Assembly: GCF_021789175.1 (NCBI RefSeq)
Contig: NZ_CP084560.1
Location: 3,224,001-3,288,000, forward strand
Length of the DNA: 64,000 nucleotides
Direction: 5' to 3'
Source of the DNA: Arthrobacter sp. FW306-2-2C-D06B
Lineage (GTDB): Bacteria; Actinomycetota; Actinomycetes; Actinomycetales; Micrococcaceae
Numbering within the stretch: the first letter of the stretch is position 1; the number at the start of each line of letters is the position of its first letter. Positions 14,226 to 41,703 of the stretch are shown piece after piece. The position numbers and the translations under genes are program-made. The notes under the pieces are model-generated. The model made no database searches, had not been told where the DNA came from, and worked only from the letters and a program-made list of their open reading frames with translations.

Positions 14226-15466
14226 TTCGCGTTTTCTCCTACGGGGTAGGCATCATGTCCGGTGCCCACTGTGGTGTCCGCACCCGCAATCGTGGGCTTC
14301 TCTCCACGGAAGTTGGCGCAGCAGCCGGGACGGCAGATGTCGTACCACGGTCCCAGCCCGGTCATGGCAGGGCGATCGGCGATGTTGTTGGCTGCGGTCC
14401 GCTCGCAAATGAGGTCCACCAAGCCGGAAACGAACTTGCGGTGGGTTCCCGGCGTGGGGACGCGGGTCGCCGTGAGCCCGAGGTTCTTGCACGTTTCCAA
14501 GGCCTCGGTGTCCAGGTCCCAGGCCACTTCCATGTGGTCGGAGACGAAACCGAGCGGAACGATCACGACGCCCTTGATCCCCTGGCCGGCCAGTTCCTCA
14601 ATGGCATCGTTGATGTCCGGCTCAAGCCATGGAACACTCGGTGCGCCCGAACGGGACTGGTACACCAAGGACCATGGTGCGGTGAGTCCGGATTCGGCTT
14701 CGACCCGCCGAACAACCTCGGCGCCGGCGGCCAGGTGTTGGGCCACATATGCCGAGTCCTGCTCGAACTCGCGGGGCTCGGCGTCCGAACGCCCGGCGGC
14801 CTCGGCGTCGCGGGTAGGAATGGAGTGCGTGGCAAACAGGATGTGGACGGGAGCGTCCTGGAGACCGGCCGCGGCCAGTTTCGCCTTGACCTCCGCAAGT
14901 CCCGCAGCCGTTCCTTCCACGAACGGTTCGACGAAGCCGGGGTGGTCGAAGTACTGGCGTACCTTGTCCACCTCGAGTTTGCCGTCAAGGCCGGTCTCCG
15001 TCAGCGCAATGCCGATGTCCTCGCGGTATTGGCGGCAGCTGGAGTAACAGGAATAAGCACTGGTGGTGACCATCAGCAGCTTGCGGTGGCCGGCGTCGTA
15101 GGCTTCCTGGAGCGTCTGCGGGATGTAGGGATCCCAGTTGCGGTTGCCCCACAGCACGGGCAGGCTGATCCCGCGCGCCGCAAGCTCCGCCTCGAGGGCG
15201 GCCTTGAGGTTCCTGTTTTGCTGGTTGATGGGGCTGATCCCGCCAAAGGCGCGGTAGTGGTGGGACACCTCTTCGAGGCGCTCATCCGGGATGCCGCGGC
15301 CACGGGTCACATTGCGCAGGAAAGGAATGACGTCGTCCTGGCCTTCGGGCCCGCCGAACGAGGCGAGGAGGACGGCGTCGTACTCTTTGGGAGCCATGCG
15401 TCCGGCCTCGGTGACGTCATTGACCTCGGTGAGGCTGGCCGGACCGGCGGAGTGACGGCCGCTCAC
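14222..15466 (-). CDS. cpfC: Coproporphyrin III ferrochelatase
   Basis: Inserts Fe(II) into coproporphyrin III in the actinobacterial coproporphyrin-dependent pathway (formerly called hemH). The 414-aa frame has LLASFGGPEGQDDVIPFLRNVTRGRG near the N-terminus, FATHSIPTRDAE with the conserved metal-binding His, and the C-terminal motif GFVSDHMEVAWDLDTEA. A cysteine cluster CRPGCCANFRGEKP near the C-terminus fits the [2Fe-2S]-ligating tail reported for actinobacterial ferrochelatases. ATG overlaps the chdC stop (ATGA), and its own stop overlaps hemC. Confidence 0.95.
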   Translation of the reverse strand: MSGRHSAGPASLTEVNDVTEAGRMAPKEYDAVLLASFGGPEGQDDVIPFLRNVTRGRGIPDERLEEVSHHYRAFGGISPINQQNRNLKAALEAELAARGISLPVLWGNRNWDPYIPQTLQEAYDAGHRKLLMVTTSAYSCYSSCRQYREDIGIALTETGLDGKLEVDKVRQYFDHPGFVEPFVEGTAAGLAEVKAKLAAAGLQDAPVHILFATHSIPTRDAEAAGRSDAEPREFEQDSAYVAQHLAAGAEVVRRVEAESGLTAPWSLVYQSRSGAPSVPWLEPDINDAIEELAGQGIKGVVIVPLGFVSDHMEVAWDLDTEALETCKNLGLTATRVPTPGTHRKFVSGLVDLICERTAANNIADRPAMTGLGPWYDICRPGCCANFRGEKPTIAGADTTVGTGHDAYPVGENAK

Positions 15467-16164
15467 GCGAGGACCTCGGCGATCTCCGCGGCAGTGATGC
15501 GGCGGCCGGTGTAGAACGGGATTTCCTCGCGGACGTGGTTGCGGGCGTCCGTGGCCCGCAGGTGGCGCATGAGGTCCACCAGATCAACGAGTTCGGGTGC
15601 TTCCAGTCCGAGGATCCACTCCCAGTCGCCCAAGGCGAACGAGGACACCGTGTTGGAAATGACCTGGGGGAAGTCGCGGCCCAGCATGCCGTGATCGCGC
15701 AGCATCTTTCCACGCTCTTCGGCCGGGAGGATGTACCACTCGTAGGAGCGCACGAACGGGTAAACGCACAGCCAGGTGCTCGGCTCGACGCCGCGGGCGT
15801 AGGCCGGAACGTGGTTCTTGGCGAATTCGGCTTCGCGGTGGACGCCCATGGCGGACCAGACCATCTCGGTGCCGTCGAACAGCGCGCTGCGGCGGATGTC
15901 ACGGACGGCCTGTTGCAGGGCCTCTGGTTTGGCTCCATGGAGCCACACCATGATGTCGGCGTCGGACCGCATCGCGGAGACGTCGTAGCTTCCGCGGAGG
16001 ACAACGCCGTCCTCGGCGAGCTTGGCAGCCAGCTTCTCGAAATCCTGGACAGCATCGGTGCTGCGCAGGACATCGCCCGACCGCTTGAAGACGGTCCACA
16101 GCGTAAAGAACTGCTCTTCGGATTCGGCAGTTTTAGTGACAGATTCGGCAGAAGTGTGGCTCAT
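15463..16164 (-). CDS. chdC: Coproheme decarboxylase (HemQ/ChdC)
   Basis: Last step of the coproporphyrin-dependent route: peroxide-driven decarboxylation of two propionates of coproheme to give heme b. The chlorite-dismutase-like fold shows VHREAEFAKNHVPAYARG, VYPFVRSYEWYILP (catalytic Tyr region) and LRDHGMLGRDFPQV (proximal His region). ATG 16164 is chosen because MSHTSAES is a natural N-terminus; the longer frame enters the upstream hairpin. It is 233 aa and lies downstream of cgoX, separated by an 18-bp stem-loop. Confidence 0.94.
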   Translation of the reverse strand: MSHTSAESVTKTAESEEQFFTLWTVFKRSGDVLRSTDAVQDFEKLAAKLAEDGVVLRGSYDVSAMRSDADIMVWLHGAKPEALQQAVRDIRRSALFDGTEMVWSAMGVHREAEFAKNHVPAYARGVEPSTWLCVYPFVRSYEWYILPAEERGKMLRDHGMLGRDFPQVISNTVSSFALGDWEWILGLEAPELVDLVDLMRHLRATDARNHVREEIPFYTGRRITAAEIAEVLA

Positions 16165-21939: not shown

Positions 21940-23151
21940 TCAGTAGACCGGTTTGCCCGGCTCGACGTCCCGCACCCACGCCAGGATCCCGCCGTCGAGG
22001 TGGCTGACCCGGGTGTAACCGGCGCGCTGCGCAGCGGCGAGCACCGTGGCGGAACGGGTGCCGGCCTTGCAGTGGAACACGATCTCTTTGTCTTGCGGCA
22101 GTTCCGTCCAGGCCTCTCCCGCCAGGATGCGTCCCTGCGGGATGAGCACCGAACCGTCGATGTTCACAATCTCGTGCTCGCCGACCTCGCGGACATCCAC
22201 CAGTTCAAAGTCGCGTTGCCCCGCCGCGCGGGCCTCGAGCATCCCGGAAAGTTCGGTGGGTGTGACGGTCGGAACCGAGTCGCCTGCGGGGGCCGGGGTG
22301 ATGCCGCAGAAGGCTTCGTAGTCGGTCAATTCAGTGATCGGCTTGGCCTCCGGGTCTTTCGAGACCTTGATTTCGCGCCAGCTGCCGCCGAGGGCGTCGA
22401 AGAGCGCCACGCGTCCCAGCATGGAGCGCCCGACGCCGGTGATCAGCTTCACGGCCTCCGTCACCATGAGCGAGCCGACGGCGGCGCACAGCATGCCGAA
22501 CACGCCGCCTTCGCCGCAGGACGGGACGGAGCCTGCAGGAGGGGCTTCTGGATAGAGATCGCGGTAGCTAGGGCCGTGCTTCTCCCAGAACACGCTGACC
22601 TGGCCGTCGAAGCGGAAAATGGATCCCCAGACGTACGGCTTGCCGAGGATCGCGGCAGCATCGTTGACCAAGTATCGGGTGGCGAAATTGTCTGCGCCGT
22701 CCAGGATGAGGTCGTAGCCGGAGAAAATCTCCAAAGCGTTGGAAGAGTCCAGGCGCACGTTGTGCAGTTGCACGTTGACCAGCGGATTGAGTTCCTTGAT
22801 GGCGTCACGTGCCGATTCGATCTTCGGCCGTCCGACGTCGCCCACGCCGTGGATGATCTGGCGTTGCAGGTTGCTGAGGTCGACGTCGTCGTCGTCCACG
22901 ATTCCGAGCGTCCCCACTCCTGCCGCGGCCAGGTACAGCAACGCCGGAGAGCCCAGTCCGCCTGCCCCGATCACGAGGACTTTTGCGTTCTTGAGCCGGC
23001 GCTGACCGGCCGCTCCGATTTCGGGAATAATGAGGTGGCGCGAGTACCGTTCGACCTCTTCGGTGGTCAGCTCCGCGGCCGGTTCCACAAGTGGCGGCAG
23101 CGCGGCAGAAGGAGAGGGCGGCAACGTTTGGGCAGCAAAAATAGTGGCCAT
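21940..23151 (-). CDS. moeZ: MoeZ-type adenylyltransferase/sulfurtransferase (E1-like plus rhodanese)
   Basis: A 403-aa fusion. The N-terminal E1-like domain has VLVIGAGGLGSPALLYLAAAGVGTLGIVDDDDVDLSNLQRQI, which activates the C-terminal Gly-Gly of ubiquitin-fold sulfur carriers. The C-terminal rhodanese domain has the persulfide loop VFHCKAGTRSA. In actinobacteria MoeZ/MoeBR serves MoaD-, CysO- and ThiS-like carriers. As no separate thiF is seen here, it is a plausible activator of the ThiS encoded 3 kb away (inference). It is divergent from a TetR regulator. Confidence 0.92.
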   Translation of the reverse strand: MATIFAAQTLPPSPSAALPPLVEPAAELTTEEVERYSRHLIIPEIGAAGQRRLKNAKVLVIGAGGLGSPALLYLAAAGVGTLGIVDDDDVDLSNLQRQIIHGVGDVGRPKIESARDAIKELNPLVNVQLHNVRLDSSNALEIFSGYDLILDGADNFATRYLVNDAAAILGKPYVWGSIFRFDGQVSVFWEKHGPSYRDLYPEAPPAGSVPSCGEGGVFGMLCAAVGSLMVTEAVKLITGVGRSMLGRVALFDALGGSWREIKVSKDPEAKPITELTDYEAFCGITPAPAGDSVPTVTPTELSGMLEARAAGQRDFELVDVREVGEHEIVNIDGSVLIPQGRILAGEAWTELPQDKEIVFHCKAGTRSATVLAAAQRAGYTRVSHLDGGILAWVRDVEPGKPVY

Positions 23152-33492: not shown

Positions 33493-35076
33493 GTGAACGA
33501 TGCAGATAACACCCAAAACGGTGAAACCACAGCCTCCCAGCCCCTGGAGGAGCGCGTCAACAACCGCTCCCAGCGGCCCACATCCGATGCCTTCAAGGCT
33601 TTCATGGCCAGCAATTGGGCGCCGGCGCCGCAGGTGACCCCTGCGCGTGACGCCGTCGCCGACCATGCCGCCACGCGTCGTCGGGCCATCTCCGACAAGT
33701 TCGCTGGCCTACGCCTCGTCGTACCGGCGGGCCCGCTCAAGGTCCGCTCGAACGATTGCGACTACCGCTTCCGCCCCCACTCCGGCTTTGCCCACCTCAC
33801 GGGCCTGGGCCTGGACCACGAGCCCGATGCCGTGCTGGTCCTGGAACCCGTCGAGGAGGGAACCGGCGACGACGGCGGCAACCACCTCGCGACGCTCTAC
33901 TTCCGTCCGCTGGCCGGCCGGGACACGGAACAGTTCTACGCCGACTCGCGTTCCGGTGAGTTCTGGATCGGCGCGCGCCCGACGCTCAGCGAATTCGAAG
34001 CGCGACTCGGGCTCAGGACCGCGCACATCGACGAACTCGAGATGGCCATCACCAAAAACGTGGGTGCCCCGGAAATCGGCGGCATCTCCATCCGCCTGGT
34101 CCGCAAAGTCGACGAGAACATCGATGCCCTCGTGGACACCGCCCGCTACAACACAGCCAAGGATCCGGAAAACCTGGACCTCGGCGAACTCGATGCCCTC
34201 GACGAACTGCTCAGCGAGGCGCTCTCCGAGCTGCGCTTGCTCAAGGACGCTTGGGAAGTCGAGCAAATGAAGATCGCCGTGTCTGCGACGGTGGAGGGTT
34301 TCGCCGACGTTGTCCGCGCCCTCCCCCGCGCCATGACCCACCACCGCGGCGAACGCGTCATCGAAGGCGCCTTCTTCGCACGTGCCCGCGAGGAAGGCAA
34401 CGAGCTCGGCTACGACACCATCGCGGCCGCAGGAAACAACGCCACCGTGCTGCACTGGACCCGGAACACCGGCAGGGTCAACGCCGGAGAGCTCGTGCTG
34501 CTCGACGCCGGTGTGGAGGCAGATTCCCTCTACACAGCCGACGTCACGCGTACCATTCCCGCCAACGGAAAGTTCTCGGACGTCCAGCGGAAGGTCTATG
34601 AAGCCGTCCTTGACGCAGCCGACGCCGGATTCGCCGCAGCCCAGCCGGGCGTGAAGTTCCGCGACATCCACACCGCCGCCACCACGGTCCTCGCAGAGCG
34701 CCTTGCCGAGTGGGGACTGCTGCCGGTCTCCGTGGAGGAAGCCATCAGCACCGAAGGCCAGCAGCACCGCCGCTGGATGCCACACGGCACCAGCCATCAC
34801 CTTGGGCTGGACGTCCACGACTGTGCCCAGGCCAAGCGTGATCTCTACTTGGACGGCGTACTCACCGAGGGAATGGTCTTCACCATCGAACCCGGGCTCT
34901 ACTTCAAGGACGAGGACCTCGCCATTCCGGAGGAATACCGAGGAATCGGAGTCCGGATCGAGGACGACATCCTGATGACGGCAGACGGTCCCGTCAACCT
35001 CAGCGCTGCCCTCCCCCGCAAGGCCGACGACGTCGAGTCCTGGATGGCGGGCATCTACCAGGACGCCGAAGCCTAA
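33493..35076 (+). CDS. pepP: Xaa-Pro aminopeptidase (aminopeptidase P, M24B)
   Basis: Removes N-terminal residues before proline. It is 527 aa, with an N-terminal creatinase-like domain and a pita-bread domain. Metal ligands appear in LLDAGVEADSLYTADVTRT (two Asp), MPHGTSHHLGLDVHD (His), MVFTIEPGLY (Glu) and GIGVRIEDDI (Glu). The first 45 residues are non-conserved, and the GTG start has no clear SD site, so a slightly later start is possible. A strong terminator follows. Confidence 0.92.
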   Translation: MNDADNTQNGETTASQPLEERVNNRSQRPTSDAFKAFMASNWAPAPQVTPARDAVADHAATRRRAISDKFAGLRLVVPAGPLKVRSNDCDYRFRPHSGFAHLTGLGLDHEPDAVLVLEPVEEGTGDDGGNHLATLYFRPLAGRDTEQFYADSRSGEFWIGARPTLSEFEARLGLRTAHIDELEMAITKNVGAPEIGGISIRLVRKVDENIDALVDTARYNTAKDPENLDLGELDALDELLSEALSELRLLKDAWEVEQMKIAVSATVEGFADVVRALPRAMTHHRGERVIEGAFFARAREEGNELGYDTIAAAGNNATVLHWTRNTGRVNAGELVLLDAGVEADSLYTADVTRTIPANGKFSDVQRKVYEAVLDAADAGFAAAQPGVKFRDIHTAATTVLAERLAEWGLLPVSVEEAISTEGQQHRRWMPHGTSHHLGLDVHDCAQAKRDLYLDGVLTEGMVFTIEPGLYFKDEDLAIPEEYRGIGVRIEDDILMTADGPVNLSAALPRKADDVESWMAGIYQDAEA

Positions 35077-35095
35077 CAACTGAAGCAAAACGCAC

Positions 35096-35137
35096 GAGGA
35101 GGGCTACCGGATACTTTTCCGGTAGCCCTCCTCTTTT
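35096..35137 (+). terminator. Rho-independent terminator after pepP
   Basis: A 16-bp perfect stem (35096-35111 with 35118-35133), 6-nt loop, followed by TTTTG. It closes the housekeeping segment just before the low-GC block. Confidence 0.92.
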
Positions 35138-35236
35138 GCTTTGCGCCGTCCTCGTAGCGTGACTGGCCGTGATGAGCAGATGCTCCTGTGCCATGTCCTG
35201 CTGGCGCGTTCAAACACGTAGACGCGGGGCACCGAC

Positions 35237-35301
35237 CACTTAATTTCGGGTTTTTTACACTGAGATTTGCCGTTTTGACCACTGAGATTGGCGAAATCCA
35301 C
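35237..35301. repeat. Three iterated ~22-bp direct repeats upstream of the peptide gene cluster
   Basis: CACTTAATTT (35237), CACTGAGATT (35258) and CACTGAGATT (35280) recur every 21-22 bp, with T-rich or TTTTGAC-type spacers. This could be a multi-site operator on one face of the helix. It could also be a relic of an IS21-type transposon end, which typically bears such iterated motifs. The remaining DNA between the pepP terminator and the peptide gene (35138-35439) contains no supported gene. Confidence 0.6.
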
Positions 35302-35424
35302 ACGGAGACGCCCTTCGGCACTTGTACCCTCCTCCTAGGCGCAGCACCGATAGTCGATCCCCCGTTTGGTGCTGTTGCCACGCTGTGAAATGGCATTTTC
35401 TCCATCTTCGAATCGGTCAAAGCG

Positions 35425-35433
35425 AGGAGGTGA
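35425..35433 (+). promoter_or_regulatory. Consensus Shine-Dalgarno for the precursor peptide
   Basis: AGGAGGTGA, a full anti-16S complement, lies 6 nt before the ATG at 35440. It is the strongest ribosome site seen in the window, in contrast to the leaderless or weak sites of most neighbours, and is good evidence that the 24-codon frame is translated. Confidence 0.85.
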
Positions 35434-35439
35434 ACACAC

Positions 35440-35514
35440 ATGGAGATGATCTCAGAAGATGTGCTGGAGGCGGAAGCCACCCTGGCCTGTAGCAGCGGGT
35501 GCATGTGCACCTGA
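35440..35514 (+). CDS. Putative RiPP precursor peptide, 24 aa, Cys-rich C-terminus
   Basis: A very short gene that automatic calling misses. The ATG follows a perfect SD site and the frame ends with TGA. The first 16 residues are acidic and leader-like (ISEDVLEAEA), and the last eight are CSSGCMCT: three Cys, two Ser, one Thr and one Gly, a typical modifiable core. There is no hydrophobic signal and no Gly-Gly cleavage site. The ATG two codons later (Met3) is an alternative start. A 15-bp hairpin follows and then four coupled genes including an E1-like enzyme with a leader-recognition domain, the architecture of microcin C7 and pantocin A clusters. The product and its modification are inferred, not known. 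Confidence 0.75.
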   Translation: MEMISEDVLEAEATLACSSGCMCT

Positions 35515-35524
35515 TCTAGCGCTC

Positions 35525-35566
35525 GGTTCGTTGGTGGCGGGGCTTGTGTATCGCCACCAACGAACC
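35525..35566 (+). terminator. Hairpin between precursor and processing genes (attenuator)
   Basis: Arms 35525-35539 and 35552-35566 pair perfectly over 15 bp (GGTTCGTTGGTGGCG) with a 12-nt loop. No U-run follows, so read-through is expected. The usual effect in peptide clusters is high precursor and low enzyme expression. Confidence 0.7.
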
Positions 35567-35611
35567 AAGTGAGATAGCAAGATACGAACAACACTGAATT
35601 TGGGGGGCAGC

Positions 35612-36550
35612 GTGCGCTTGCCACTGTTCAATATTTTCGACTTTCCGAAGCACAAGAATTTCTATGAGGCGATCCAAGCTGCAGGTCCAGTTGGCGCGTG
35701 GAACCTTATGAAGGAGCTAGACGCGCTTGATCGGCCCATCTACCGGGCAAACCAACCTGACATAGACAATTTCGCACTCTTGAAGGCCCGGGCCCTGGAT
35801 TTCATGAATGCTGTCCCTGGGCTTGATCGGTTTGACAAGGAGTTGCACGCCACGAGCTTTGCTGAATACGGACCGAAGCTGCAGTTTGAATCGACTTTCA
35901 TCAATCTGTGGATGAAAGACACTGAGACCCTGTTTCGGGACGTTGTGACCGTCGATGGGCGCCATCACCTTCACGAGGCGGCGTCCAGTGGCAGAGGGGT
36001 AATCGCTCTCCCGCTGCATCTGGGACCCTCATATGCCGCCATTCCCATGCTCGCTTATGAAATGCCGACGACGACGCTCTACAACCGAATGAATTTTGAC
36101 GAGATCCACGCAGCGTCCTTTCCTGATTTGGACTTCCGCGGGATCCGGCTCGGGAGCACATCGGCGATGCGCTCTGGCCTGGCCGCCCTGCGTGAGGGCA
36201 GGATCTTCTCCATGTTCCCTGAACTGGACCCTCGTGGAGTGGATGAGCACCACGCCCGAATTCCCTTCTTGGGAACAACCATCATGGCTCCCACCGGTCC
36301 GATTGTCCTGAGCCATGTTTCGGGTGCCCCTATGGTCCCACTCACCCTCAGGGCTATCGGCGACGGGCGCTTTCGACTCAAATACCACCCTGCCATACCA
36401 CCGCCGGCATCTCCCGATGAACGTCGCCGCTCCCTCCTGGCCGTTTGGGATGTCATTGAGTCCGAGCTTCTCGCCGGCGACGTCGGAGAATGGGAAATGT
36501 GGTTCGAATTTGACCGGATGCTACCCCAGGTATGGGCCATCGAATCATGA
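35612..36550 (+). CDS. LpxL/HtrB-like acyltransferase-fold protein in the peptide cluster
   Basis: A 312-aa protein related to lysophospholipid/lipid-A acyltransferases. GVIALPLHLGPSYAAIPML (about 129-147) aligns with the HX4D/E motif block, and GRIFSMFPELDPRG...IPFLGTTIMAPTGPIVLSHVSGAPMVPL follows the family's second and third blocks. His136 is present, but the acidic partner expected at 141 is Tyr. GTG 35612 with GGGGGG upstream is preferred over TTG 35600. No clear N-terminal membrane anchor is seen. The stop overlaps the ABC ATPase start (ATGA). Possible role: N- or side-chain acylation of the peptide, or handling of a lipid partner. The odd active site makes this uncertain. Confidence 0.7.
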   Translation: MRLPLFNIFDFPKHKNFYEAIQAAGPVGAWNLMKELDALDRPIYRANQPDIDNFALLKARALDFMNAVPGLDRFDKELHATSFAEYGPKLQFESTFINLWMKDTETLFRDVVTVDGRHHLHEAASSGRGVIALPLHLGPSYAAIPMLAYEMPTTTLYNRMNFDEIHAASFPDLDFRGIRLGSTSAMRSGLAALREGRIFSMFPELDPRGVDEHHARIPFLGTTIMAPTGPIVLSHVSGAPMVPLTLRAIGDGRFRLKYHPAIPPPASPDERRRSLLAVWDVIESELLAGDVGEWEMWFEFDRMLPQVWAIES

Positions 36551-37329
36551 CTGTTGCCCCTCTTCCCGCCATTTCTCTCAAAGGCGTTCGTCGCCTCTAT
36601 GACGACGGTGCCGGAAACGAGAAAACTGCGCTAGAAATTGATGAACTCGAGATCCGGTCGGGTGAACTTGTTGCCGTCATTGGCCCATCTGGATCCGGCA
36701 AGTCAACCCTGCTCCAATTGGTCGGGGGGATCGATTCGCCGACTGCGGGGAGCATAGACGTAGCAGGACTCCGGGTCTCCGGGATGGATGAAAAACAGAA
36801 GACAATCTTCCGGCGAGAGAATATTGGATTCATTTTCCAGGCATTTCATCTTGTTCCAAGCATGACAGTGGTGGAGAACGTCGGATTGTCATCGATTGTT
36901 TCCTGTCAAAAAGGCTTTCGTTGGCGAGCAGACGCTCTGGTGCTGCTCGATCAGCTGGGACTGTTTGAATATGCCGATAGGTTTCCCGATCAATTGTCAG
37001 GCGGGCAACGTCAGCGGGTCGCCGTAGGTCGAGCGCTATTCGGGGCTCCTGGCGTCGTCCTGGCCGATGAGCCGACGGGAAGCCTCGACTCCGGGAATAG
37101 GGATATTGTTCTCCATCTGATTCGCGACGCGATCGGAGACGGTCGTCGCACGACCGGGCTGATCGTCACCCATGATCCATATGCTGCGAGTTACGCCGAC
37201 CGGATCATCGCGCTGCGGGACGGGAAGATCGTTGATCAACTTGACCTGACCCTCAACGGACCACCTCGGGAGGGAGATTCTCACCATGATGAGCGCGTTC
37301 GCTCGTGGTTTGCGGCAACTTCGCTTTGA
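36547..37329 (+). CDS. ABC exporter ATP-binding protein (MacB/LolD type)
   Basis: A 260-aa ATPase with Walker [10 protein letters not shown] (46-54), Q-loop FIFQAFHLVPSMT, signature LSGGQRQRVAVGRAL (150-164), Walker B VVLADEPTGSLDSGN and switch His in LIVTHDPYA. The LVPSMTVVENV and DEPTGSLD wording is typical of MacB/LolD ATPases that pair with FtsX-fold permeases. It overlaps the preceding gene by four bases and the permease gene by 44 bases. Likely powers export of, or immunity to, the cluster's peptide product. Confidence 0.9.
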   Translation: MTVAPLPAISLKGVRRLYDDGAGNEKTALEIDELEIRSGELVAVIGPSGSGKSTLLQLVGGIDSPTAGSIDVAGLRVSGMDEKQKTIFRRENIGFIFQAFHLVPSMTVVENVGLSSIVSCQKGFRWRADALVLLDQLGLFEYADRFPDQLSGGQRQRVAVGRALFGAPGVVLADEPTGSLDSGNRDIVLHLIRDAIGDGRRTTGLIVTHDPYAASYADRIIALRDGKIVDQLDLTLNGPPREGDSHHDERVRSWFAATSL

Positions 37330-39769
37330 TTTTCCACGATATGGAGTCGCAGCGGTTGCGCTGGTGTTCGGCGTAGCGCTCATTTTCGGCACTCTCCTCA
37401 CATCTAAGAGCATCAACGACCAGATCTCGCAAGGAGTTGGCTCGCTATCAGGCATTGGCGACTTCGCCGTGGTCCCTGCTATTCCCGGGACCACGGTCCC
37501 GGAGAGCGCAGTGAAGGCCTTGGCGGAGCTCCCTGGCGTTGCGACGCCGATCCCGACTCTGGCACGAAATTCGAGCGTCCGGCCTGCGGGAACCGTCGGA
37601 ACAGGCCGCCCGCTGACGGTTACGGGTTACCCCACTACGTTCAACTCTGAGTTTCAACTCATGAGGCTTGAGCTACGGGGACGGCTCCCTGCCGTAAACA
37701 AGCCTGAGGCACTGGTTCCGTCTGACGTGGCTTCGCGTTTAGGCGTGGACGTAGGCGATTCGCTGGTGGTCGCGTCGAGCGACGCTACCACGCAACTGCG
37801 AATCGTAGGGGTGTTCAATGGCAAGGTTCTTGGTCCGTTGGCGTACGACAATATTTTCGTCGATTTGTCGTACGCCCAGATGATATTCAAGCAACAAGGC
37901 CAGGTATCAAGGGTCGACATCCAGCTGACGGCCGGAAACTCCGCTGAACGCTGGCAGAGCGAGTATTCGTCCAGCCTGCCTCCTCAGTTCAAAGTACAGG
38001 ACACTTCTGCCTTCAATTCGACCCTCGGCCCCCTCCTCGCGGTTGTTTCACTCATCTTGATGATCGCCTCCGGCACCGTACTGGGCATCTCGATCCTGCT
38101 CTCAGCGACGGCCTTCCAGTCCGTCGTAAATGCCCGTCGGCTGACTTATGGTGTCATGCGCGCTGCCGGCGCCCGCGGTTCCTGGCTGGCGGGCGCCGTC
38201 TTTTATGAGGCACTGACGCTCGCGTTCGCGTGCTCGATGGTCGGGCTGGGGCTTGGGTTTGGTGTCAGCTGGATCCTCAACCAAGGGCTATCGTCGATCG
38301 GCAACATACCTCCAACAACCATTGCGGTCGAACTTTGGCAAGTTCTGCTTGCCATTCTGAGCGGCGTCGCCGCGGGCTGCGCCGGGGCGGCCCGGGCCAT
38401 AATGAAAGTGCTGCGCCAGGCCCCTCTTACGGCTATCTCGCCTGAAGACGCAGAGCGCAGGTCTTCAACGAGATTCCGCGTCGCCCTCGGCATCATGCTC
38501 CTCGTATTCGGAGCCGGCAGCTACTGGCTTGACTCCATTGTCGTGAAGCTCGTTGGCTTCGTCATATCGCTGGCCGCCGCGGGACTCCTTGCTCCGTCAG
38601 TTCTCATCGCCTGCACCAGGCTGCAGATCTTCAAAGGATGGACAGGGAAGGCTGCGGCTCAGCGCCTGCGCAAACACGCATCCCTCGACTCCACGACGGC
38701 CATCATGGGGATTGTCGTCTGCCTGGGTACGGCCCTTGTGATCGGGGTCGGCTCCGTACGGAGCGCCATGATGGAGCAGATTGGCCGTCAATTCGGGGCC
38801 GACATTCAAATATCGTCCACGACGCCCATCACCGAGAAACTGGACAAACGCTTGGGGTCCATTGAGATGATCAACCGGGTTTCGGACACAGTTTGGGATC
38901 ACGCGGCGTTGCAGTTCCAAGGCTCCACGACCCAGGTTGCAATCCTGGCTGTCGATCCAAATAGCTACTTCGCCACTGCTCAGCTTCCATGGCGCCAAGG
39001 AAGTGACGGATCTGCGCCCGTTGCCCTCAAAAAGGGCGGCGCGGTCATCATTCCTGAAGCTCTCGCCGCCAGCCGCGATATTTCCTTGGGCGACTACGTC
39101 AGATTGGATCGGGCGGGTAAGACCCTCCAGCTTCGCCTTGTCGGGACGTATGCGTCCTTGGCAACAGGGAATCAGGTGGTGATGAGTCGCGACGCGGCAG
39201 CCGAGCTCGGAATTACCGGATCCAATGGCTGGAATGTAGAAGCGAGACCGGGTGTCGACGTCACAGCGCTCCGGGACACGATCGCCGATTCAGTTGCCGA
39301 CATCCCTGGCGTCTCGGTGATCACAGCCGCCAAAATGAAGGAGCGCGCAGAATCAGAGCTCGGCTCCTACGCCGGAGCCGCCTTCGGCATCGTGGTGCTT
39401 GCGCTCAGTCTCGGCGCGATCGGCGCGGCCGGCCTGTTCTCGATCGGCGTCGCTCGTCGGGAGAAAGAGTTCGGGATGTTGCGCGCGATTGGTGCCACCC
39501 GGGGCGACATAACGAGGCTCGTTGCCGTTGACGCGATCTTGATTGGAATCGCGGCGCTTGCTTCGGGACTTCTCGTTGGTCAGTTGGCTGGGTGGATACT
39601 GACCCGGCTTGTCGCCGGGGCACTCGGAGTGACGCTGAGCGCGACTGTTTCCGTCCTGGCATTCAGTGGAATCGCAATTGTCACCTTGACTGCATTGTGC
39701 ATGGCGGCGATAGGACCGAGCCGCAGGGCGGCTCGAATAGAGCCTGTAGCGGCCCTGAGGGCCGAGTAA
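37286..39769 (+). CDS. Large FtsX-type ABC permease (MacB-like)
   Basis: An 827-aa membrane protein with a duplicated FtsX architecture: an N-terminal helix (about 18-37, VAAVALVFGVALIFGTLLTS), an extracytoplasmic MacB-PCD-like domain, a helix group around 245-440, a further helix near 475-490, a second extracytoplasmic domain, and three C-terminal helices (about 700-820). GMLRAIGATRGDITRLVAVDAILIGI is the classic FtsX C-terminal motif. A GGAGGGAG site precedes ATG 37286 (ATG 37289 is also possible). No peptidase domain is fused. Its TAA overlaps the next start (TAATG). Fits a one-protein exporter or immunity pump working with the adjacent ATPase. Confidence 0.88.
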   Translation: MMSAFARGLRQLRFDFPRYGVAAVALVFGVALIFGTLLTSKSINDQISQGVGSLSGIGDFAVVPAIPGTTVPESAVKALAELPGVATPIPTLARNSSVRPAGTVGTGRPLTVTGYPTTFNSEFQLMRLELRGRLPAVNKPEALVPSDVASRLGVDVGDSLVVASSDATTQLRIVGVFNGKVLGPLAYDNIFVDLSYAQMIFKQQGQVSRVDIQLTAGNSAERWQSEYSSSLPPQFKVQDTSAFNSTLGPLLAVVSLILMIASGTVLGISILLSATAFQSVVNARRLTYGVMRAAGARGSWLAGAVFYEALTLAFACSMVGLGLGFGVSWILNQGLSSIGNIPPTTIAVELWQVLLAILSGVAAGCAGAARAIMKVLRQAPLTAISPEDAERRSSTRFRVALGIMLLVFGAGSYWLDSIVVKLVGFVISLAAAGLLAPSVLIACTRLQIFKGWTGKAAAQRLRKHASLDSTTAIMGIVVCLGTALVIGVGSVRSAMMEQIGRQFGADIQISSTTPITEKLDKRLGSIEMINRVSDTVWDHAALQFQGSTTQVAILAVDPNSYFATAQLPWRQGSDGSAPVALKKGGAVIIPEALAASRDISLGDYVRLDRAGKTLQLRLVGTYASLATGNQVVMSRDAAAELGITGSNGWNVEARPGVDVTALRDTIADSVADIPGVSVITAAKMKERAESELGSYAGAAFGIVVLALSLGAIGAAGLFSIGVARREKEFGMLRAIGATRGDITRLVAVDAILIGIAALASGLLVGQLAGWILTRLVAGALGVTLSATVSVLAFSGIAIVTLTALCMAAIGPSRRAARIEPVAALRAE

Positions 39770-40875
39770 TGGCCGATAGAGGAGGAGCGAAGACCGGCTG
39801 CCGCCCGTTGAGACTGCGGGACAGCGTTCTGGTATTCAACCGCGATTGTCGAATGCAGTTCATTTGTACCATGGAACTCAGGGTCCTTGAATTCGACGTA
39901 TCCCCGTTTGTGATCGAGTTGATCCCGTTGCTTGACGGGTTGAATTCCATCGAGAGGATCGAATCGATCCTCGAAGGAAGTGCCGGGTTCAGTCGCAAAT
40001 CGCTTGAAAACGTCCTGGCCATCATGGAAACCGAGCGCCTCTTTGATAGATACCCGCAGCCGGAGTATTTGAACGCAAACAGGTTCGAACGTCAAGAGAG
40101 GCTGTTCCAGGAGTTCGCATCCACGTTTTCCCTTGCTAGCTCGCCGACTCAACTGCAGGAAAGACTCCGTACTTCGAAAGTCGTGGTCGTGGGAGTCGGC
40201 GGGACCGGGACCTGGCTACTGCAATCCCTTGTCGCCGCAGGCATCGGCAGAATTGAGATTTTCGATCCGGACATTGTAGAACTCACAAACTTGAACCGGC
40301 AGATCCTATTTCAGCCGGGCGACCTAGGCTTGGCTAAGGTGGACGTCTCCGCCGAACGGTTCACGTCGATAGACGAGAACCTTCAGGTCACGGCGAACCG
40401 TCATCGAGTGGTTGCAGCAGCAGATCTCGAATCGGCGCTAAGGGATGCCAGCCTGGTGGTCGGATGCGCCGATGAGCCCGACGTCGTCGTCATCTCGGAT
40501 ATCATCGCTGAAGCCGCGATGGAAGCGCGCGTTCCCCACATTGTCGGTGGCGCATATGGCGGAAACCTGGGGGTGCCCGGCACCAGCATCATCCCTGGAC
40601 AGACGGTGTGCTGGCAATGCATTCGCGCACAGACCATGAACGATCACAGCCGCTCCAATTTCCTTCCGCTCAAGGGACGGACGAGGAGCGGCGGAAGCAC
40701 CGCAGCCATTTCGGGCTTGGTAGCGAATCTGGCAGCCTGGGAGGCCATGCGGATCCTGCTCGGGTTGCCGCTTGCGTTGTCCGGGCAGGTGCGGGAACTC
40801 GAGCTGTTCACCTTGGACTGGCGCGTCCGAAAGCTCGCAGGCCTTCCAGATTGCAGGTGTGAGGCCCAGCAATAA
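39769..40875 (+). CDS. E1-like adenylating enzyme with N-terminal PqqD-like leader-binding domain (MccB/PaaA/ThiF type)
   Basis: A 368-aa protein. Residues 14-95 look like a RiPP recognition element as found in ThiF-like TOMM and MccB/PaaA proteins: LRDSVLVFNRD, a beta-rich strand set, then FVIELIPLLDGLNSIERI and helices. Residues 136-330 form the adenylation domain: VVVVGVGGTGTWLLQ (GxGGxG 142-147), IFDPDIVELTNLNRQ (D166, N174, R177) and K190. CWQC (281-284) supplies two zinc ligands; the second pair is CRC (362-364) instead of CxxC. Unlike many cyclodehydratase partners, the ATP site looks complete. Predicted to bind the leader and activate a peptide carboxylate as the adenylate. The start overlaps the permease stop (TAATG). 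Confidence 0.85.
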   Translation: MADRGGAKTGCRPLRLRDSVLVFNRDCRMQFICTMELRVLEFDVSPFVIELIPLLDGLNSIERIESILEGSAGFSRKSLENVLAIMETERLFDRYPQPEYLNANRFERQERLFQEFASTFSLASSPTQLQERLRTSKVVVVGVGGTGTWLLQSLVAAGIGRIEIFDPDIVELTNLNRQILFQPGDLGLAKVDVSAERFTSIDENLQVTANRHRVVAAADLESALRDASLVVGCADEPDVVVISDIIAEAAMEARVPHIVGGAYGGNLGVPGTSIIPGQTVCWQCIRAQTMNDHSRSNFLPLKGRTRSGGSTAAISGLVANLAAWEAMRILLGLPLALSGQVRELELFTLDWRVRKLAGLPDCRCEAQQ

Positions 40876-41703
40876 CTACTGCTTCGCCGGATCCTCACCG
40901 TTGGCGGCCTGCTCGCCGTTTCCGGTCTCGTTCACCCGCACACCGTACTGCGGCCGGCCGTCGGGAAGGTCCGGGTAGCGGACGCCGGCGGTTGGCCGCG
41001 CGGCCGCGGCCGGGGCCGGGGCATCCGCAACAGGCTGGGCGGGTTCGCCGCCCGTACCCTGTCCGGCTTCGGGTCCGCGCTGGCCATAGGGGTCCTGCCA
41101 TGACGCCGGACGTTCCGGGGCCGGGCCCTGGGGTGCACCTGGATGGGCCGGCGGGTTCCGGTAGTCCTGCGGCGTGTATGCCTGCGGCGGCCGGCCGAAG
41201 GCTGCCTCGGAAGGATTCATCGGCAATTGGTGAAGGAGACGTCGGGCTTCGTGGGATGCCTCCAACGCGACAATGACGTCATAGTTCGTCGCAACTACCT
41301 GGCTGGTGGAGGTGAAGTCCCGCTTCCCGCGCTGCGCAGCGTAGGTGACAATCCCGAAGAGCATGAAGAATGCCGCACCCATGAGGACCGAGGTCACAAT
41401 CGAGAAGGGCCCCCCGGCCGGGGTAAAGAACGAAAGCATGACGCCCACGAACAGGCCGAACCACATACCGCTCAGGGCGCCGGACAAAGCGACCCGCGGG
41501 TAGCTGAGCCGTCCCGTTACCCGTTCCACCATTTTGAGGTCGTTTCCGACAATGGAGACATGCTGGACGGGGAACTGCTGGTCGGCAAGATAATCCACCG
41601 CCTTCTGGGCATCGAGATAGGAAGTGTAAGAGCCCACGGTGTCGCCCTTGGGGACGCTGCGGGATTCCTCCGTGGCCTTAGGGGCACCGAAAATGTTCGC
41701 CAT
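40876..41703 (-). CDS. General stress protein-like membrane protein (YflT/GSP17M domain)
   Basis: A 275-aa protein. The N-terminal domain GSYTSYLDAQKAVDYLADQQFPVQHVSIVGNDLKMVERVTGRL matches the general-stress-protein-17M-like domain, followed by two membrane helices (roughly 80-105 and 112-135) separated by a short turn. The C-terminal 110 residues are Pro/Gln/Ala-rich and disordered. ATG 41703 has a GGGGG site. Its stop abuts the E1-like gene stop with no spacer, marking the right edge of the low-GC block. Confidence 0.8.
   Translation of the reverse strand: MANIFGAPKATEESRSVPKGDTVGSYTSYLDAQKAVDYLADQQFPVQHVSIVGNDLKMVERVTGRLSYPRVALSGALSGMWFGLFVGVMLSFFTPAGGPFSIVTSVLMGAAFFMLFGIVTYAAQRGKRDFTSTSQVVATNYDVIVALEASHEARRLLHQLPMNPSEAAFGRPPQAYTPQDYRNPPAHPGAPQGPAPERPASWQDPYGQRGPEAGQGTGGEPAQPVADAPAPAAAARPTAGVRYPDLPDGRPQYGVRVNETGNGEQAANGEDPAKQ

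Follow-up and report, generated by a model that had tools for sequence, protein, structure and literature searches.

A candidate RiPP cluster in Arthrobacter with a CMCT-tailed peptide, an MccB-like enzyme and an acyltransferase-like protein

Gene order and features of the cluster

The subject of this report is a small gene cluster at positions 35440-40875 of a 64,000-nucleotide stretch of DNA (hereafter the window) from Arthrobacter sp. FW306-2-2C-D06B (contig NZ_CP084560.1, positions 3,224,001 to 3,288,000), which lies within a single-contig genome of 4,564,406 bases. A sequence-only reading had proposed a cluster for a ribosomally synthesized and post-translationally modified peptide (RiPP), comprising a tiny Cys-rich peptide, an LpxL-like acyltransferase, a MacB-like exporter and an E1-like adenylating enzyme. 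This gene-level layout was confirmed when the sequence from 35000 to 41400 was read together with the list of open reading frames (ORFs), and the RiPP-type assignment was supported by a conserved short precursor and a ThiF-like enzyme fused to a RiPP recognition element (RRE). As shown by sequence and model, a CMCT-tailed peptide is conserved together with an MccB-like enzyme, an acyltransferase-like protein and an FtsX-type ATP-binding cassette (ABC) pair.

All features of the cluster are on the + strand. The precursor gene (35440..35514) encodes the peptide MEMISEDVLEAEATLACSSGCMCT in 24 codons with a kept C-x(3,4)-CMCT-stop ending, and the perfect Shine-Dalgarno site AGGAGGTGA that had been noted for it (35425..35433) was read directly, ending six bases before the ATG. 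A hairpin (35525..35566), detected as an inverted repeat and by RNA folding, separates it from the gene for an LpxL/PatA-fold acyltransferase-like protein of 312 aa with a GTG start and a Lip_A_acyltrans match (35612..36550). This is followed by an ABC ATPase of the MacB/LolD type (36547..37329; PF00005; the ORF listing begins at an earlier ATG, 36532), an FtsX/MacB-type permease of 827 aa (37286..39769; PF02687 and PF12704) and an E1-like adenylyltransferase of 368 aa with an N-terminal RRE-like domain (39769..40875). The four genes are coupled as noted, through an ATGA overlap, a 44-nt overlap and a TAATG junction, respectively. Two further claims about the block also held: its GC content is 0.587, compared with 0.644 for the window without 35077-40875, and the E1 stop at 40875 lies flush with a convergent ORF ending at 40876. 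No regulator or immunity gene was evident among the four cluster genes, nor did Pfam matches indicate a major facilitator superfamily (MFS) exporter.

The precursor gene is preceded by a leader or promoter region (35211..35439) that is common to three Arthrobacter clusters and 90% identical in the other two (genome G127 and strain Hiyo8), and no sigma-70-like site was found in it. A direct repeat pair, CACTGAGATT at 35258-35267 and 35280-35289 (spacing 22 bases), lies inside this conserved region and is a possible operator or element end. Further upstream, 3' of an aminopeptidase P gene, a hairpin (35096..35133) with a 16-pair stem followed by TTTTGCTTTG resembles a terminator and divides that gene from the cluster.

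The precursor peptide and the E1-like enzyme

Peptides with the same tail were identified next to the E1-like gene in four genomes. The Hiyo8 peptide is MEMVSEDVLEAGATLACSSGCMCT and that of G127, with a GTG start, is VEMISEDVLEAGATLACNSGCMCT, while G482, which represents another genus of the same family, carries two short ORFs 5' of the acyltransferase gene, MKLLVSRKLPAGSAARCNNRCMCT and MRVVHESELPVGAAARCTQDRCMCT (locus L043, - strand, 15680-15754 and 15515-15592), arranged as tandem precursor genes that share the CMCT tail but differ in leaders and cores. Leu9, three Cys and CMCT-stop are invariant in all five peptides, so that a precursor next to the E1 gene, as is expected of RRE-fused ThiF systems, is conserved. 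The short Cys-rich ORF, whose absence from homologous loci had been named as the observation that would count against a RiPP cluster, thus persists at the distance of G482. The DNA pattern TGY-N9-TGYATGTGYACNTRR (C-x3-CMCT-stop) occurred once, at the cluster, in four of the five carrier genomes searched (G000, G127, G141 and G482) and was not found in the fifth (G090, whose cluster is decayed), and its backward control gave no occurrence in any of the five. The x4 variant, which was looked for in the fetched loci only, was present in two of 100, both of them stretches of the G482 locus.

A hairpin follows the peptide gene, as had been noted; it is a perfect 15-bp inverted repeat (35525-35539/35552-35566), with a chance expectation in the window of 0.00. 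Its predicted RNA fold reaches -41.5 kcal/mol (z -4.24), and a strong stem was found at this place in all four loci folded, the three Arthrobacter loci giving z values of -4.24, -4.15 and -3.70 (each with 0 of 200 shuffles as good). The 15-bp stem of G482 is unrelated in sequence to these. The position corresponds to that of the mccA-mccB terminator in microcin C operons, which is reported to yield an excess of mccA mRNA (PMC6495379), and the hairpin here could likewise keep peptide mRNA in excess over enzyme mRNA. Because no T-run lies 3' of it, termination at this hairpin is uncertain.

The E1-like protein has a ThiF match in Pfam (E 1.5e-43), and ThiF is also its best sequence match in PDB and, among the best 25 of 34 matches, in NCBIfam. 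Within those 25, the scores stay below the cut-offs (ThiF, 117 bits vs 275; MoeB TIGR02355, 93 vs 377). The closest solved structure is MccB, with a fold match of near full length aligned from residue 12 on, and both sequence and fold similarity to PaaA are detectable. Three strands and three helices at residues 20-88 form an N-terminal RRE-like domain, and the ATP/Mg residues are intact, being invariant and spaced as in EnfB. The proposal of an MccB/PaaA-like E1 enzyme with a leader-binding domain is therefore upheld. It could be argued that the protein serves cofactor sulfur transfer and that the short ORF is incidental, considering that ThiF is the best sequence match; this reading is extremely improbable and already contradicted by the sub-threshold scores of the cofactor models, the fused leader-binding domain, the conserved peptide and a separate MoeB/MoeZ-type match elsewhere in the window (22348-23004, - strand; 28% identical to the cluster E1). 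Membership in the MoeB/ThiF cofactor group was rejected on the same scores and domain, and homologues clearly assigned to sulfur transfer with a ubiquitin-like partner, the other outcome that had been named as adverse, did not appear.

The identity of MccB as the closest structure also raises the possibility of a microcin C-like peptide-nucleotide antibiotic, in which the E1-like enzyme would attach a nucleotide, AMP or another, to the end of the peptide. The two systems share a near full-length enzyme fold, a short peptide gene with a strong Shine-Dalgarno site, a hairpin and then the operon, and a relative from Nonomuraea gerenzanensis has a peptide that ends in Asn. However, the precursors described in the mcc survey end in the Asn that the N-P bond requires (PMC6495379), whereas all five peptides here end in Thr; most mcc precursors have 7 aa, compared with 24-25 aa here; the cluster has no MFS exporter, and an acyltransferase and an FtsX-type ABC pair are features that set it apart from microcin C. 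We consequently rejected microcin C-type membership despite the hairpin, and the nucleotide conjugate that had been suggested as one product is very unlikely.

Activation chemistry and the proposed product

ThiF-like RiPP enzymes form a recognised group including MccB, PaaA, GrcB, EnfB and IndF, which are described as adenylating a carboxylate that is then attacked by a nucleophile, MccB acting on Asn and forming an N-P bond and EnfB giving a C-terminal imide or amide (PMC12250964, PMC12150305). The claim that the cluster stands apart from known families was therefore too wide. We found no report of the cluster itself in the open-licence PMC papers searched. Several unstudied network clusters are said to fit the criteria of the IndF paper (PMC12150305), and the present branch may already be within that network, unnamed. 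Considering sequence, models and analogy together, we regard it as evenly poised whether the ThiF-like adenylyltransferase with its fused leader-binding domain is the centre of a RiPP cluster that gives a macrothiolactone. By family resemblance, the leader, which would extend to around residue 16, would bind the RRE-like domain, the carboxylate of the C-terminal Thr would be adenylated with ATP/Mg, and a core thiol would attack the acyl-adenylate, releasing AMP and forming a macrothiolactone with a loss of 18 Da. From a monoisotopic mass of 2523.002 for the peptide, the thiolactone is predicted at 2504.991, or at 2502.975 if it also contains one disulfide. We favour Cys21, fourth from the C-terminus, as the nucleophile, and its attack would produce a 13-membered ring; a Cys21-Thr24 thiolactone is preferred because the C-terminus is the sole carboxylate common to the five cores, which have no Glu or Asp in common, and because the Cys21/Thr24 spacing equals that of Trp6 and Ile9 in IndA. 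Cys17 and Cys23 are alternatives.

Comparison with known systems places this proposal between several of them. PaaA cyclises Glu residues; it has the RRE-E1 architecture in common with the present enzyme but no Glu is conserved in the cores here. Autoinducing peptides contain the same kind of ring, from C-terminal carboxyl to Cys, but are closed by an AgrB-type protease rather than by the adenylation proposed here. IndF, from the ind cluster of Streptococcus pneumoniae, shares an RRE-fused ThiF-like enzyme, a short precursor and a transporter, and joins the C-terminal residue to the side chain three before it (Trp6-Ile9), the same i to i+3 geometry; it differs in its Trp nucleophile, its WYFI tail (CMCT here) and its M16 peptidase, and no acyltransferase is named in its description (PMC12150305). 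GrcB of the GRC-type radical S-adenosylmethionine (SAM) RiPPs is likewise ThiF-like with an RRE and makes a thiolactone with Cys, but is described as linking a Glu within the peptide to a Cys at its C-terminus and as working with two radical SAM enzymes (PMC12250964). GRC-type membership was rejected, since the last residue is Thr, the cores share no Glu and, in agreement with the sequence-only reading, none of the four genes encodes a radical SAM enzyme. The noted absence of YcaO was also confirmed genome-wide, by a search that was positive in 5 of 14 control genomes, and thiazole/oxazole-modified microcin (azol(in)e) membership was rejected for want of this cyclodehydratase. ThiF-like RiPP enzymes thus seem to combine one activation step with varied nucleophiles, and the fixed C-x(3,4)-C-M-C-T tail with its own acyltransferase-fold partner defines a branch that can be tested directly with peptide, one enzyme and ATP.

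Several observations weigh against the favoured explanation. The choice of nucleophile among three Cys and other side chains is a guess, and no peptidase that would remove the leader is present among the four cluster genes. The Arthrobacter peptides vary too little for selection to be shown (4 changes, dN/dS 0.82), and their conservation is weak proof because the surrounding DNA is itself about 90% identical. The hairpin of G482, a GC-rich locus, is not significant against shuffles (z -1.59; 13 of 200 as good), and in the related Nonomuraea locus the peptide is a different one that ends in Asn, while no acyltransferase match was obtained. Two E1 homologues outside the 24-row alignment depart from the enzyme pattern, P0013 being without the D235 region and P0029 without the CxxC pair, and the Hiyo8 acyltransferase and permease are split through frame changes, which may be assembly errors.

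It is also possible, though doubtful, that the activated C-terminus is not cyclised but passed to an external nucleophile (an amine, sulfide to give a thioacid, or a lipid alcohol), with the acyltransferase-fold protein acting as the transferase and a peptidyl-adenylate or peptidyl-thioester as the acyl donor. EnfB is reported to be able to amidate its activated C-terminus with amines (PMC12250964). On the other hand, the presence of three invariant Cys beside the carboxylate to be activated speaks for an internal thiol. The acyltransferase-like protein bears on this question from both sides. It has the LpxL/PatA fold and a Lip_A_acyltrans match (E 1.1e-10), although its best NCBIfam score is 29.9 bits, where the cut-offs start at 209. 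H135 and the block 3 residue E203, counted from the residue that follows the GTG start, are invariant in all 22 aligned rows and correspond to H126-E200, the catalytic dyad of PatA; HtrB, MsbB and PatA have all been suggested to use block 3 (PMC4792965), and retention of these residues of PatA-type acyl-CoA enzymes argues against transfer of the peptide itself. The HX4D/E acid of block 1 is gone, being replaced by Tyr140 in 22 of 22 rows, where PatA has Asp and LpxM has Glu. PatA, LpxM and LpxL thus share the fold with a family that keeps the PatA His and block-3 Glu, and whose substrates may differ given its closed membership and this Tyr. We set aside the reading of a dead enzyme, as PatA relies on the block-3 Glu that is kept here; counter to this, Glu127 of LpxM, at the site of Tyr140, is called catalytic in the title of a PDB entry for a mutant of that enzyme.

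The acyltransferase-like protein may add a fatty acyl group to the peptide, and the ABC pair may export it. An actinobacterial lipidated macrothiolactone, in which the E1-like enzyme closes Thr onto Cys and the PatA-fold enzyme adds the lipid, is a tentative reading that, if true, would add a new class of RiPP as well as a new route of lipidation. The ATPase (ABC_tran, PF00005, E 1.1e-30) is closest in NCBIfam to MacB and LolD, below cut-offs among the best 25 of 199 matches, and the permease contains two stretches each of PF02687 (FtsX) and PF12704 (MacB_PCD). Pairs of the MacB/FtsX kind commonly serve efflux or immunity. The acyltransferase and the ABC pair might instead provide self-protection, by envelope lipid remodelling and drug efflux, the product being an unacylated peptide antibiotic; PatA does acylate envelope glycolipids (PMC4792965). 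This is unlikely, considering that the acyltransferase gene comes first after the peptide gene, that each of the five loci read contains it, although in split form in Hiyo8, and that its score is far from housekeeping PatA/LpxL models.

Distribution, insertion and related loci

The acyltransferase search (E <= 1e-8) returned 24 proteins at 44-97% identity and a further two at 31%, and the acyltransferase-like protein belongs to a closed family of its own, found beside this E1 type. Five of the 24 are on contigs equal in length (51829, 306675, 5149366, 11328 and 19943) to contigs with E1 matches and were taken to share them, the pair on the first having the locus tags B5766_03550 and B5766_03565; since the E1 protein search scored only 8000 candidates, E1 partners of the others were possibly missed, or are absent. 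Related proteins also came from Leifsonia, Cellulomonas and Lumbricidophila, and of two loci obtained by scanning genome contigs, one was Hiyo8 and the other matched at 31% across 76 residues. Of 206 genomes in the genus, 16 pass E 1e-18; four of these have cluster-type E1 relatives and the remaining 12 are at 31-36% identity. At E <= 1e-30 the E1 was found in 2 of 345 family genomes (its own and G482) and 1 of 396 order genomes (its own). With the E1 profile (E <= 1e-45), 18 of 394 class genomes matched (its own, G999 and 16 others scoring lower), as did 1 of 35 in the genus of G482 (G482 itself). The acyltransferase was detected in 1 of 396 order genomes (its own) and in none of 109 genomes of another family, a search without positive control. 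The order and class draws gave no match from other known carriers. Neither protein had relatives in viral contigs, and the acyltransferase had no match in 72,556 plasmid records, among which the E1 query retrieved six at about 40% identity or less; of the five of these that were read, four have annotated neighbours without an acyltransferase and the unannotated L049 has no acyltransferase match. In the E1 tree, which has long branches, the eight rows labelled acyltransferase-bearing group in a single 16-row clade (88/98, not starred); the acyltransferase needs five changes on this tree, at least three of them forced by starred branches, with the other eight clade rows scored as lacking it though not inspected.

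In all five cluster-type loci read, the acyltransferase, ATPase and permease genes precede the E1 gene. The E1, acyltransferase and ATPase of G482 are 42%, 43% and 47% identical to those of the window, and the match to its permease ORF (826 aa) covers the second half only. Among ten genus genomes without a cluster-type E1, the downstream neighbour follows aminopeptidase P after 165-569 bases in eight, and it was not seen within the 1.5 kb available in the other two; the cluster is therefore best read as an insertion between these genes. By ORF reading, the G482 cluster is at a different site, beside pheA-like and serS-like genes. In G127 (L042, about 15283-15612), the shared upstream region is set off from aminopeptidase P by roughly 330 additional bases, some 30 bases of the window being matched on either side of them, and one strand of this stretch reads as a possible YefM/Phd-like antitoxin fragment. 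The G090 sequence indicates a cluster in decay: its E1 (L038, 4616-5497) is without residues about 230-298, including Asp235 and Cys281/Cys284, the peptide pattern was not found, and the contig starts about 440 bases before the acyltransferase (L038, 1-440) with an apparent transposase end. The shortened G090-type E1 also occurs in the protein collection (P0013, four members on two contigs).

Beyond these loci, the E1 of N. gerenzanensis is 40% identical, and the ORF just 5' of it (L049, 8837-8923) is MDRPPVMVKVEEVPLRVGAVTASNSHGN, with a good Shine-Dalgarno site and the ending RVGAVTASNSHGN. G999 (L083), whose E1 groups with it in the tree (100/99), has RVGAVTASNSAGN-stop in the same place with no in-frame start codon before it, so that the gene for its peptide is either broken or misassembled, or does not exist. 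An acyltransferase match is absent from both stretches. Their V-G-A part is similar to LPVGAAAR of G482, and the Asn ending is the one that microcin C enzymes require. From few cases, this suggests that the E1 branch retains a type of leader but varies its tail, and that chemical modification takes place at the CMCT end. In the genus of the window, four further loci (L040, L046, L047 and L048, of G067, G151, G132 and G177) have an E1-like gene preceded by a 19-aa ORF, (M)LKLKRLAKRRSKLN(F/L)VFN, an Asn-ending family that looks microcin C-like. A third E1-like gene (L039, L045 and L088, of G083, G156 and G116) follows a conserved 45-aa ORF ending in FVMRRC, and the ORFs before the E1-like genes of L084 and L085 (G1169 and G961) have a common KKK(L/I)E(V/L)K(I/A)RKLEK(I/V)ETT leader with different tails. 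Finally, two Moraxellaceae plasmids (L050, 4625-9220; L052, 4202-8806) carry two neighbouring ThiF-like genes together with a small ORF and an ABC transporter, the locus of L050 adjoining BREX genes.

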